DNA of 21,653 nucleotides from a virus: IMG/VR virus record IMGVR_UViG_3300010149_000220, positions 1 through 21,653 of that record; one strand, 5' to 3'. Made by a program: the position numbers and the translations under genes. The number at the start of each line of letters is the position of its first letter. The stretch's first letter is position 1. Below the pieces are notes generated by a model. The model made no database searches. It saw only the letters and a program-made list of their open reading frames with translations, and was not told the origin of the DNA. Below are positions 6,959 to 10,849 of this stretch, piece by piece.

Positions 6959-6987
6959 TTGACAAATAATAAAACAACTATTATAAT
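6959..6987 (+). promoter_or_regulatory. Perfect-consensus sigma70-type promoter for hsp20
   Basis: TTGACA at 6959-6964, a 17-nt spacer (6965-6981) and TATAAT at 6982-6987: both hexamers match the bacterial housekeeping consensus exactly with optimal spacing. It lies in the 96-nt gap between the ribonucleotide reductase and Hsp20 genes. Initiation would be expected near 6994, leaving a leader of about 53 nt. The -35 reads CTTGACA, which also resembles the CTTG start of heat-shock sigma (RpoH) promoters, so dual recognition is possible. Confidence 0.85.
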
Positions 6988-6994
6988 AAATATA

Positions 6995-7040
6995 TGGTGC
7001 CAATAGTGGGCCACAAAATATCAACTTGCTTAGAAAGGAG
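6995..7040 (+). promoter_or_regulatory. ROSE-like RNA thermometer in the hsp20 leader (predicted)
   Basis: Two hairpins can form in the short hsp20 leader. Hairpin I: 6995-6998 pairs with 7010-7013 and 7000-7002 with 7007-7009, with one bulged G (6999) and a four-base loop; it would begin at about the first transcribed base. Hairpin II: C7025-U7031 pairs with A7035-G7040, with U7026-A7039, U7027-G7038, G7028 unpaired, C7029-G7037, U7030-A7036, and loop 7032-7034. The UUGCU (7026-7030) against AGGA (7036-7039) of the Shine-Dalgarno, with the odd G, is the signature of ROSE thermometers, which control hsp20 genes in alpha- and gammaproteobacteria. The pairing is seen by eye; temperature response is inference. 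Confidence 0.6.
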
Positions 7041-7046
7041 AATGAT

Positions 7047-7502
7047 ATGAACGTACATGCATCTTTAACGAGTAATCATCCATTTTTTTCAAACTTCTCT
7101 AATTGGGCTATCGGACATGATAGATTGTTTAGAGAAATGTTAAGGGTGGTTGATAATGCACCTTATCCAAACTCTGTTATGTCTGGTTATCCACCACATA
7201 ATCTTATTAAAGATGAGGTAGGAAAGTATAGAGTAGAGTTAGCAGTTGCCGGATTTAATAAAGAGGAGTTAGTAATTAAAACAGAGGCTGGTAAGCTTAT
7301 TATTAGTGGTAAAAAAAAGATGCAAACAGATGATGAAGAAAAAGTTGTTCACAAAGGAATTGCTCATAGATCCTTTGAGAAAGTTTTTCATCTTGCAGAT
7401 AATGTAGTTGTGGAAAATGTGTCTCTTGAAAATGGTATGTTATCAGTTAAGTTAGAACAACTCATACCAGAAGAAAAGAAACCCAAGTTCTATAATTTAT
7501 AA
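7047..7502 (+). CDS. Small heat shock protein Hsp20 (alpha-crystallin family, IbpA-like)
   Basis: ATP-independent chaperone of 151 residues that would hold unfolding proteins. The alpha-crystallin domain spans about residues 50-140: IKDEVGKYRVELAVAGF, EELVIKTEAGKLIISGKKK, GIAHRSFEKVFHLADNV and the hallmark ENGMLSVKLEQLIPEEKKP near the end. The N-terminal 45 residues (FFSNFSNWAIGHDRLFREM) resemble the IbpA type. ATG 7047 follows AAAGGAG (7034-7040) with 6 nt spacing; the TTG at 7026 lies inside the leader and is not the start. Hsp20 is a known accessory gene of marine phages. Here it has its own promoter, leader hairpins and terminator, so it seems to be a separate unit between the replication block and the glycan cassette. 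Confidence 0.95.
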   Translation: MNVHASLTSNHPFFSNFSNWAIGHDRLFREMLRVVDNAPYPNSVMSGYPPHNLIKDEVGKYRVELAVAGFNKEELVIKTEAGKLIISGKKKMQTDDEEKVVHKGIAHRSFEKVFHLADNVVVENVSLENGMLSVKLEQLIPEEKKPKFYNL

Positions 7503-7510
7503 GTACATTA

Positions 7511-7538
7511 GGGGGAGTGCGTATTAGCTCCCCCTTTT
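7511..7538 (+). terminator. Rho-independent terminator after hsp20
   Basis: A perfect 7-bp GC-rich stem, GGGGGAG (7511-7517) pairing with CTCCCCC (7528-7534) across a 10-nt loop, followed by TTTT. It starts 8 nt after the Hsp20 stop codon. With the promoter at 6959 it bounds a single-gene unit; the short T-run suggests some read-through into the following cassette, where I found no separate promoter. Confidence 0.85.
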
Positions 7539-7561
7539 CATACTAACACAGGAGATATATA

Positions 7562-7729: not shown

Positions 7730-8496
7730 AAAAACAACCTAATACAGTTTACATAGGTTATGATCCTAGAGAAGATGTAGCCTATGAGGTTTTAAAGTTT
7801 ACAATAGAAAGAATAGCCGTAGACAATGTACGTATTGTTCCTATTAGGCGTGATGTTGTTGAAAGAATGGGCATCTACAATAGAAAATATGATATTGTTG
7901 ATGGGCAAAACATAGACCAGATTGATGGTCGTCCGTTCTCAACTGAATTTAGTTTTACAAGATTTCTTGTACCAGCATTGAATATGTATCAGGGATGGGC
8001 CTTATACATGGACTGTGATATGTATCTCAGAACAGATATTAATGAATTGTTTGAAGAATATAATATGGATTATTATCCACTCTATTGTGTTAAACATGAC
8101 TATACTCCTGGTGATAGTAAAAAAATGGATGGTCGTAGTCAGACAAACTATCGTAGAAAAAACTGGTCAAGCCTGATGTTGTGGAACTGTGGACACGAAC
8201 TTAACAAGAGTCTTACAGTACATGATGTTAATCACCAGCCTGGATCTTGGCTGCATGGCTTTGAATGGTTGCCTGAGAAAGATTCTGACATAGGAACAAT
8301 AGATGAAGAATGGAATTGGCTTGATGGTCACTCTAATCCAGAACTAAAAGCAAAGAACGTACACTTCACAACAGGTGGTCCCTGGTTTAAGGATTGGCAA
8401 TGTAAACGTCCTATTGATGGGATGTATGCTGCCGAATGGAATGGAGATTATACTTATCTTGCAGGACATGGAAAGATAAAACCTTATGAAGTATAG
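7726..8496 (+). CDS. Glycosyltransferase (GT8-like, alphaproteobacterial type)
   Basis: A 256-residue predicted nucleotide-sugar-dependent glycosyltransferase. Visible: N-terminal strand VYIGYDPREDVAYEVLKFTI; STEFSFTRFLVPAL; a metal-binding DxD motif Asp96-Cys-Asp98 in ALYMDCDMYL; KMDGRSQTNYRRKNWSSLML; EEWNWLDG; and a late His213 in HFTTGGPWF, which in GT8 enzymes can help bind metal. This set matches, from memory, a family common in alphaproteobacterial chromosomes, so capture from a host is plausible. AGAGGA precedes ATG 7726, which overlaps the stop of the 55-residue gene; its own end overlaps the next gene by 11 nt. The acceptor is not evident: candidates are virion proteins or host surface glycans. 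Confidence 0.82.
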   Translation: MKKQPNTVYIGYDPREDVAYEVLKFTIERIAVDNVRIVPIRRDVVERMGIYNRKYDIVDGQNIDQIDGRPFSTEFSFTRFLVPALNMYQGWALYMDCDMYLRTDINELFEEYNMDYYPLYCVKHDYTPGDSKKMDGRSQTNYRRKNWSSLMLWNCGHELNKSLTVHDVNHQPGSWLHGFEWLPEKDSDIGTIDEEWNWLDGHSNPELKAKNVHFTTGGPWFKDWQCKRPIDGMYAAEWNGDYTYLAGHGKIKPYEV

Positions 8497-10849
8497 AATA
8501 GTCACCTGCTTTGATGAAACAAAGCTTAAACAAAATACAAATAAATTATTGGAGCAATTCAAAAGTAACTGGCAACCTAATATAGAGTTCCATTGTTATT
8601 ATTATAATCTTGATATAAAGAATTATTCCTTACCTAAAGCAAAGAATATAAAGTACCACAATCTTGAATCCATATCTGAATATAAAAAGTTTGTGGAAGA
8701 TAACAAAGTACATGATGGTACTGAAGATAAAACCATAGCATACACAGAGATGCTTGATGCTCTGAGTGCAGCCCCTAAAGTTTTCTCTATTAGTGAGTGT
8801 GCTTTCAATCATGAGGGTGGTTGGATTATTTGGGTAGACCCTCTTTCAATAACTCTAAAAGATATTAGAAAGTCTTCTCTTGATACTATCTTTCCTAATG
8901 GAAAAAGTAATACTGATTTTGTTTTTATTCCTGAGAGTGACTACTTCATGGGATTTAATATAGGCAGACAAACTCCTGTTGATCTTCTGGGAGATTGGAG
9001 AGGTGCTTATATTTCTGGAGAATTCATGAACTATAGAGAATGGTCTGGTTCTTTTGTATTAAATAGGTTGGCTACAATCTACAATGCTCATGGTATGAAC
9101 ATCACTGAGATAGATAAGATAACATCCTTATTAGTAAGTTTGAAAGATAAGGATGTCTATGCTATGAGAGATGGTTCAGGCAAAAGGATAATTCCATTGT
9201 CAGAAACGGATACATCTCCAGACATATTACCGAATAGATATAAACAATTAGCTGATATGATCCGCTTTTATAAACCCAAAACAATCCTTGAAACAGGAAC
9301 TTGGAATGGTGGTCGTGCCATTGAAATGTCTCTTGCTGCCTTTGAGAACAGTGATGAGGTACATTACATAGGCTATGATTTGTTTGAGGATGCTACAACT
9401 CAAACAGATATGGAAGAGTTTAATGCCAAGCCTCACAACACAGAAGCGGCTGTTATTAAAAGGCTGGATGAATTTAAAGAACATATTAAAACAGAAAGAC
9501 AAAAAGAATTTACCTATAAACTTCATAAGGGTAATGTGCGTAATACCTTAAAGAAAGAACACTGGCCTATATTTTTAGATGTTGATCTAGCTTTAATGGG
9601 AAGTGGTAACAGCATTCCAACAACTAAACATGAATATGAAATGCTAAAAGGTATTCCAATTCTTGTGGCTGATCATTACTTTACCAAGGATGAAGATGAC
9701 AAGATAGCCGAAGAACACTATCAAGGTGTTAAGGAAGTCTTTGATAGTGTTATCACAAAAAAAGTAGATGCACAGGAAACAACAGAGGATGGTTGGACTA
9801 ACTTTGATGAGAAGTCAACCACAAGAAAGTATTTATTACCTTCTGGAGATAAGGTAGCTGTTGGTGGTCACACACATTTGGCAGTCTTTCTTCATGATCC
9901 AAAACTAGATGATGTTCCTGAAGATCTTAAACGTGTGCCTATAGTAGTACACCCCAGAGATTGTGTACCAAAAGATTATATTAAATCTAACATCCAAGCA
10001 AACATGAAACTTCTTGGTAAGGATAAATGGATACAAAAGCATGTTCCCCATAACGAAATGGGTATTATAGTTTCTGGTGGTCCTTATCTGGACTATAAAA
10101 AACTAAAAGAATTTGTAGATGAACATCCCAATAGTAAAGTACTTGGTGTTAAACATGCTTATCCACATCTTATGGAGCATGATATATTTCCCTGGGGTTG
10201 TATTGTCCTTGATCCTCGTCCCATAACAGGGAAGAGTACACACAATATTGTAAGAAAAGATTTGTTTGAAAACTTACACCCCAAGACAAACTTCTTTATA
10301 GCATCCATGACTGATCCCACAGTAACTAATTTTCTAAAGGATAAAGATGCAAGGATGTGGGGATGGCATGCCTTTACCGATTCATTAAGGGCAGATGAGC
10401 AACAAGGACAGGCAATACAAAATCAACAGGTAGTTCTTAACGAAGAGTTGGGTATACCTAAAGGTGCTACCTTAATTACAGGTGGTACGTGTGCAGCCAT
10501 GCGAAGCATAGGTATGTTACATACAATGGGCTTTAGGAATATACATCTTTTTGGTTTTGATTGTTGCAGGGATGAACCAACTGATGAGGAGAAAACAGAA
10601 ACAACAGGTGATATAGATGGTGGTGAAACACCCAAACCAAAGTACATTGAAGTAAGTGTCAAGGACAAGTCATACTGGACTACGGGTGAACTTCTGGCAA
10701 TGGCACAGGATTGTGAGAAGATCTTTAGTGATCCTGGTCTTGATGGAGTTCTAACCTATCATGGAGAAAACACAATGGTAGCTGATCTATGGACAATAAA
10801 AGAACAACAGGAGCAGCGTAAAGCTTTTGATGGGTATTACGATGATTGA
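8486..10849 (+). CDS. Fusion protein: glycosyltransferase-like, methyltransferase-like and DUF115/MptE-like regions
   Basis: A 787-residue protein in which three regions can be seen. Residues 1 to about 225 resemble a glycosyltransferase fold (MKYRIVTCFDE; GGWIIWVDPLSITLKDI; MNYREWSGSFV) but lack a clear DxD. Residues about 245-480 look like a class I SAM methyltransferase: ILE269-T-G-T-W-N-G-G (motif I), HYIGYDLF, and IFLDVDLALMG. Residues about 520-787 resemble DUF115/MAF_flag10 (6-hydroxymethylpterin diphosphokinase MptE-like): V529-S-G-G-P, LGVKHAYPHLM, WGCIVLDPRP, and T665-G-G-T-C followed by GFRNIHLFGFDCC. MAF-type proteins act in flagellin and surface glycosylation. No Shine-Dalgarno is seen; its ATG lies inside the previous gene's end, so translation is probably coupled. 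Substrate unknown. Confidence 0.75.
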   Translation: MKYRIVTCFDETKLKQNTNKLLEQFKSNWQPNIEFHCYYYNLDIKNYSLPKAKNIKYHNLESISEYKKFVEDNKVHDGTEDKTIAYTEMLDALSAAPKVFSISECAFNHEGGWIIWVDPLSITLKDIRKSSLDTIFPNGKSNTDFVFIPESDYFMGFNIGRQTPVDLLGDWRGAYISGEFMNYREWSGSFVLNRLATIYNAHGMNITEIDKITSLLVSLKDKDVYAMRDGSGKRIIPLSETDTSPDILPNRYKQLADMIRFYKPKTILETGTWNGGRAIEMSLAAFENSDEVHYIGYDLFEDATTQTDMEEFNAKPHNTEAAVIKRLDEFKEHIKTERQKEFTYKLHKGNVRNTLKKEHWPIFLDVDLALMGSGNSIPTTKHEYEMLKGIPILVADHYFTKDEDDKIAEEHYQGVKEVFDSVITKKVDAQETTEDGWTNFDEKSTTRKYLLPSGDKVAVGGHTHLAVFLHDPKLDDVPEDLKRVPIVVHPRDCVPKDYIKSNIQANMKLLGKDKWIQKHVPHNEMGIIVSGGPYLDYKKLKEFVDEHPNSKVLGVKHAYPHLMEHDIFPWGCIVLDPRPITGKSTHNIVRKDLFENLHPKTNFFIASMTDPTVTNFLKDKDARMWGWHAFTDSLRADEQQGQAIQNQQVVLNEELGIPKGATLITGGTCAAMRSIGMLHTMGFRNIHLFGFDCCRDEPTDEEKTETTGDIDGGETPKPKYIEVSVKDKSYWTTGELLAMAQDCEKIFSDPGLDGVLTYHGENTMVADLWTIKEQQEQRKAFDGYYDD

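Follow-up and report, generated by a model that had tools for sequence, protein, structure and literature searches.

The probable hsp20 transcription unit

The window, that is, the whole stretch of DNA analysed here, is a virus record of 21.7 kb from a marine phage (IMGVR_UViG_3300010149_000220; 21,653 nt) carrying genes for a T7-type primase-helicase, a family A DNA polymerase, a ribonucleotide reductase and a small terminase. A gap of 96 nt separates the end of the ribonucleotide reductase gene (6950) from the start of hsp20 (7047). The latter gene (7047-7502, plus strand, like the other features of this locus given below) encodes a small heat-shock protein of 151 amino acids, the translation of which matches Pfam family PF00011 (61.2 bits, E 1.1e-16). 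The gap holds a sigma-70 consensus promoter (6959-6987) in which TTGACA (6959-6964) and TATAAT (6982-6987) are separated by a 17-nt spacer and agree with the consensus at 12/12 positions. Exactly this arrangement, TTGACA-N17-TATAAT, was present in each of the 18 distinct leaders that the close relatives provide, both boxes and the spacer length being invariant. With a transcription start placed about 7 nt past the -10 box, the predicted 5' leader is about 53 nt long (6994-7046), and the two hairpins described below begin directly after this inferred start. A Shine-Dalgarno (SD) sequence, AAAGGAG (7034-7040), lies 6 nt 5' of the AUG (7047-7049).

A terminator-like hairpin, GGGGGAG...CTCCCCC followed by TTTT (7511-7538; -17.7 kcal/mol for the fold of 7504-7540), is located 3' of the gene, and a G-rich hairpin of the same kind likewise follows hsp20 in most close relatives. 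Since a promoter precedes hsp20 and a terminator-like hairpin follows it, the gene is probably a transcription unit of its own. Elsewhere, the window encodes a NifU-like iron-sulphur scaffold domain (PF01106; 13317-13580, minus strand) and, at 8486-10846, a 787-amino acid protein with an MptE-like domain (PF01973), the neighbour of which is a 256-amino acid open reading frame without a Pfam match.

Structure of the leader

Hairpin I (6995-7013), identified from the MFE fold and from covariation, pairs UGGU and CCA, placed on either side of the bulged G6999, with UGG-GCCA across the loop AUAG. Hairpin II (7018-7048; MFE fold) is the predicted thermosensor. Its outer stem joins AUAUCA (7018-7023) to UGAUAU (7043-7048), pairing A7047-U7048 of the start codon, and encloses the ROSE core (7025-7040), which both the sequence and the Rfam ROSE_3 alignment resolve into C7025, UUGCU (7026-7030), U7031, the loop AGA, A7035, AGGA (7036-7039) and G7040.

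A sequence-only reading of this DNA had placed a ROSE signature at 7025-7040. Its bases proved right letter for letter, and the pairs proposed are all possible (C7025-G7040, U7026-A7039, U7027-G7038, C7029-G7037, U7030-A7036 and U7031-A7035, with G7028 bulged and AGA as loop). The core stood as described; its extent did not, the full element comprising two hairpins and about 60 nt instead of 16 nt, and both hairpin I and the outer stem of hairpin II were absent from that reading. In the lower core, ViennaRNA favours a neighbouring register (U7026-G7040, U7027-A7039, G7028 opposite G7038), while C7029-G7037, U7030-A7036 and U7031-A7035 are common to the two versions. Either register is possible, G7028 being bulged in one and facing G7038 in the other.

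For hairpin II, the predicted energy is -7.5 kcal/mol at 20 °C, rises to -3.5 kcal/mol at 37 °C and is close to zero at 50 °C; these values are to be read as weak evidence, nearest-neighbour folding ignoring the noncanonical pairs of ROSE cores. The isolated 16-nt core hardly folds (probability of C7029-G7037, 0.19 at 37 °C) and is held by the outer stem; in most close relatives, too, core formation is improbable under the nearest-neighbour model (about 0.1), which depends on the outer stem. When at least 30 nt of coding sequence are added to the leader of the window, alternative folds win. The folding energy of the leader is ordinary (z -0.75; 44 of 200 shuffles equally good), and because single-sequence folding energy is not significant, the case rests on comparison.

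Conservation and covariation

The close relatives consist of 16 viral contigs with Hsp20 identities of 64-100%, all of which retain the promoter, hairpin I, UAUCAACUUGCU, the SD and UGAUAUG. Within this family the loop of hairpin II alternates between UUGCUU-AGA-AAGGAG and UUGCU-AUA-AGGAG, so that its structure survives an indel, and compensated pairs are already present in hairpin I. The outer stem AUAUCA/UGAUAU is kept across the clade of the window and is absent from distant phages. A scan of viral contigs with an hsp20 alignment, from which the best 80 loci were retained, revealed a leader plan shared by nearly all of these distant phages: a variable stem closing YGCC...GGGR, then ACUYGCUUAAU(A)AGGAG.

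The pairing of UUGCU with AGGA on which the sequence-only reading turned is kept in 16/16 close relatives, at 74/79 phage hsp20 starts and in 16/18 sampled phage records. At the level of sequence, T(T/C)GCT occurs 2-10 nt from an AGGA SD at the same 74/79 hsp20 starts and at 0/160 other genes, a comparison drawn from phage loci collected through hsp20 similarity alone and in which counts such as 74/79 are inflated by shared ancestry. Ancestry alone does not explain stems that change in sequence yet keep their pairs.

A first covariance model, R1, was trained on twelve close leaders that excluded the window and one further locus (L004), and was searched against both strands of 72 loci (291 kb). 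It gave 41 matches at E<=1, every one at an hsp20 leader, although that of L205 stops 10 nt before the AUG. A second model, R2, built from the R1 matches and run on 66 further loci, gave 54 matches, 52 of them at hsp20 starts and two off target at E 0.62 and 3.1. A covariance-model check had been proposed with the original reading, and in it the window rose far above background, with 63.2 bits under R1 (E 5e-13) and 59.8 bits under R2, against at most 20.2 bits under R2 for the decoys, 46 viral loci that contain the exact core nearly always inside a coding gene. Exact-core matches outside hsp20, being nearly all intragenic and not scoring with the model, were rejected as candidates. A viral coding family (L022, L035, L083 and others) in which the DNA TATCAACTTGCT(A/C)AAGGAG encodes YQLA(K/Q)GD and mimics the ROSE core by chance serves well as a decoy set.

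An ordinary SD that merely happens to have a complementary stretch 5' of it would fit the weakness of the 16-nt hairpin alone. It would fit neither the near-universal occurrence of the core at phage hsp20 starts, as opposed to 0/160 other genes, nor the confinement of model matches to hsp20 leaders; chance, to which we give a negligible probability, is refuted by the comparative data.

Hairpin I has undergone compensatory changes of both partners at all 8 of its pairs among 39 distinct leaders, and 97.1% of its cells are paired. Its covariation (0.456) exceeds that of shuffles (0.158 +/- 0.012) and of slid versions (<=0.071), and the result was repeated in an independent set (0.436 versus 0.155 when shuffled). 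The compensatory changes looked for in the leaders of relatives are present in hairpin I, whereas the pairs of the SD core are nearly invariant and covariation supports them far less, the core helix being paired in 99.2-99.5% of cells across leaders of both sets. A bulged G is conserved in hairpin I (40/41 and 51/53 leaders) and another in the core of hairpin II (40/40 and 53/53, i.e. 93/93 aligned cores). Across these phages the leader is a conserved and covarying structure, linked almost exclusively to hsp20.

A conserved structure that serves mRNA stability or a steady level of translation, without temperature sensing, would also fit the position of hairpin I at the predicted 5' end and its sequence, which varies freely as long as the pairs are preserved. 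Stabilisation of mRNA by a stem at the 5' terminus has been discussed for Pseudomonas (PMC3669281), and the ordinary folding energy agrees with such a role. This explanation nevertheless accounts neither for the strict conservation of U(U/C)GCU facing the SD, with the G bulged in 93/93 aligned cores, nor for the restriction of the core to hsp20, and we consider it improbable.

Relation to known RNA thermometers

The Rfam family ROSE_3 (RF02523) aligned over its full length (1-69) to 6991-7052, with the core and the AUG in register (20.8 bits, E 0.026), and was the only credible match among 4227 Rfam families in the 221 nt scanned. This score lies below the ROSE_3 gathering cut-off of 43 bits, and the leader of the window is not assigned to RF02523; in other phages ROSE_3 scores ranged from 24.9 to 34.1 bits. 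Rfam gave no matches at gathering threshold in the window or its close relatives, and the families ROSE (RF00435) and ROSE_2 (RF01832) matched neither the window at gathering threshold nor its leader at E<=10. A fourU thermometer was rejected, the anti-SD strand being UUGCUU and no UUUU occurring within 6994-7049.

Many bacteria use two-hairpin switches of this kind to confine the translation of small heat-shock chaperones to warm conditions. By the features used in the literature, the leader is ROSE-like. Its 3'-proximal hairpin pairs U(U/C)GCU imperfectly with the SD, G7028 being the odd base; it falls within the range of two to four hairpins with the SD in the last (here hairpins I and II); and it precedes a small heat-shock gene (PF00011) as its 5' leader.

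The two-hairpin thermometers of Pseudomonas ibpA have been proven experimentally: the SD lies under U(U/C)GCU, and hairpin II melts while hairpin I stays closed (PMC3669281). The element of the window resembles these ROSE_3 leaders in its two hairpins, in a leader of about 60 nt, in its U(U/C)GCU-SD pairing and in its place before a small heat-shock gene, as well as in a hairpin I with a core of the GAUGCC...GGGUC type and a bulged G. It differs from them in being viral, in scoring below the Rfam cut-off and in its sigma-70 rather than sigma-32 promoter; moreover, the AUG is unpaired in Pseudomonas ibpA, whereas the AU-rich outer stem of the clade of the window pairs part of it. Long ROSE elements, which occur in rhizobia and enterobacteria and include that of E. 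coli ibpA, share U(U/C)GCU opposite the SD, the odd G and the link to small heat-shock genes, but have three to four hairpins (PMC3669281) and were not matched by the Rfam scans of the window leader. In Synechocystis, the small heat-shock gene hsp17 likewise has its ribosome site covered by a hairpin, but this thermometer is a single hairpin with a 1x3 bulge and is not of the ROSE type (PMC4477652), which is the type that cyanophages carry.

Phage thermometers counted earlier, no more than two or three in all, are those of lambda cIII, SPbeta blyA and a sigma-70-factor gene of Caudoviricetes (PMC10586365, PMC11182007). They likewise make access to a ribosome site in phage mRNA depend on temperature, but are of fourU or alternative-structure types and belong to other genes.

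The alignment to ROSE_3, the conservation among relatives, the held-out model and the restriction of matches to hsp20 together bear out the earlier proposal of a ROSE-type element before this phage hsp20. We regard the leader of the window as probably a short, two-hairpin RNA thermometer of the ROSE-like kind, the temperature response of which we infer. From the strong sigma-70 promoter, host RNA polymerase would produce a short transcript. At low temperature, hairpin II would pair UUGCU with the AGGA of the SD and, in the clade of the window, would also sequester part of the AUG, so that little Hsp20 would be made. On warming, the weak bulged-G core would open and ribosomes would load, while hairpin I would remain folded and prop hairpin II. 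Hairpin II is taken as the sensor because of the analogy with the Pseudomonas ibpA leaders. Temperature-dependent opening of this kind may be of benefit during infection.

Distribution among phages and in SAR11

The element was found in 16 of the 18 phage records sampled, cyanophages included: P-SSM2, P-HM2, S-RSM4, Syn30, S-CRM01, ACG-2014d, ACG-2014f, S-RIM8, S-SM2, P-TIM68, S-RIM2, P-RSM1, AG-345-O18 (a single-cell virus assembly and not an isolate), the pelagiphage HTVC115P, Melnitz-3 and the Pseudomonas (P. aeruginosa) phage phi30-2, in which it takes a weaker form. It was not found in the two others, S-TIM5 and Vibrio IBT_VpB-34. Among the phage hsp20 genes examined, a ROSE-like leader is close to general and reaches beyond the phage group of the window. 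The promoters upstream are diverse: of 75 phage leaders, 29 have T4-type late boxes and 21 have TATAAT, these two groups overlapping, and in 28 none was recognised.

In SAR11, all 17 hsp20 leaders read show the two hairpins and the core alike, and covariance-model matches were obtained too. These loci came from a genome scan with a broader hsp20 alignment, the close-family alignment having found none. The plan is identical to that of the window, but the SAR11 leaders differ in their sigma-32-like promoter (CTTGAAA...CCATAT before 13 of the 17 leaders, by a simple pattern), in an AGGAGG SD and in having no AUAUCA/UGAUAU outer stem. As SAR11 uses a sigma-32-like promoter and the phages use others, the phages appear to have retained the RNA element with promoters of another kind. 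In these Pelagibacteraceae loci (L239-L314), the two-hairpin ROSE-like leader behind the sigma-32-like promoter falls below the Rfam cut-offs.

Several unusual loci were also encountered. In one clade (that of L211; L316-L330), viral Hsp20 proteins have Lys at the site of IbpA R93, with a shortened core, CUCGC...GGAG, and a conserved hairpin I in the leader. Searches found no relatives of the hsp20 genes of L228 and L229. In the unverified record 'Pseudomonas phage Y7' (OQ572409.1; L221), an IbpA-like gene is accompanied by a ROSE_3 element of 69 bits; this may be bacterial DNA within a phage record.

Possible autoregulation by Hsp20

IbpA of E. coli represses its own synthesis by binding to its ROSE leader, for which R93 is indispensable; an aromatic side chain at 34 and cationic ones at 97 and 98 are also required (PMC10474464). 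The phage leader may, by the same token, serve chiefly to bind Hsp20, which would thereby repress its own synthesis, misfolded proteins such as capsid intermediates titrating the chaperone and releasing translation. It would then be a sensor of aggregation more than a thermometer, though both functions can coexist, as they do with E. coli IbpA. Among phage and SAR11 Hsp20 proteins, the equivalent of Arg93 is present in 127/130, position 34 is aromatic in 130/130 and position 97 is R/K in 128/130. The YGC/GG motif with its bulged G is fixed in both hairpins while the stem around it covaries, which fits a protein or tertiary contact; in lineages without R93 (the L211 clade, L228 and L229) the core is atypical or missing; and self-repression would account for the use of the leader in seawater, a setting of rare heat shock. 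Against this, R93 and Y34 sit in the conserved motifs GIAxRxF and YPP and may be conserved for other reasons, position 98, a requirement in the E. coli protein, is K/R in just 17/130, S-TIM5 and L191 keep R93 without the canonical element, and the L211 clade has Lys at 93 yet retains a modified ROSE-like leader. The link between R93 and the leader is suggestive only. On balance, a leader devoted chiefly to self-repression is possible but rather unlikely. Because residues 93, 34 and 97 and the bulged-G motif are conserved, we nevertheless take autogenous aggregation sensing, with putative binding by phage Hsp20, as a serious extension of the thermometer or a rival to it.

A wider scheme can be put forward tentatively. 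Marine podoviruses and T4-like cyanophages might share a viral ROSE regulon, in which the switch was kept while sigma-70 or late promoters replaced the heat-shock promoter. Hsp20 would bind both YGC/GG motifs, the leader would report aggregation during virion assembly, and cross-talk with a ROSE-controlled hsp20 of the host might occur.

Novelty and significance

No description of ROSE elements in phages was found in the literature searched, outside which lie most subscription journals, and an earlier notice is possible; two papers on cyanophage Hsp20 mention no thermometer. The ROSE switch has apparently gone unnoticed in viruses until now. SAR11 likewise gains an unreported ROSE-type element, no account of one having been found in the literature searched. 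A regulatory RNA would here have been kept across distant phage lineages despite differing promoters.

The hsp20 gene is a core gene of T4-like cyanophages, and its role in capsid maturation has only been guessed (PMC3037559). If nearly all of these phages carry a ROSE-like leader, the chaperone supply of the virus would be tied post-transcriptionally to temperature or aggregation. Such a link would matter for infection under ocean warming, and cultured phages allow tests.

Two published annotations bear on the element. In S-PM2d, ATTCAAACTCGCTTAAATA before hsp20 was listed as a putative Pho box (PMC10976474, Table 2); the same work found neither PhoB binding nor a response to phosphate, and the Pho-box reading of this core is rejected. 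The putative Pho box ATTCAAACTCGCTTAAATA of the S-PM2 hsp20 leader reads as a ROSE core. In P-HM2 (GU075905.1; locus L224, 529-603), hsp20 has been annotated to begin 24 codons too early, which leaves the ROSE element inside a misannotated hsp20 N-terminus; translation likely begins at the ATG of MEIQRY.
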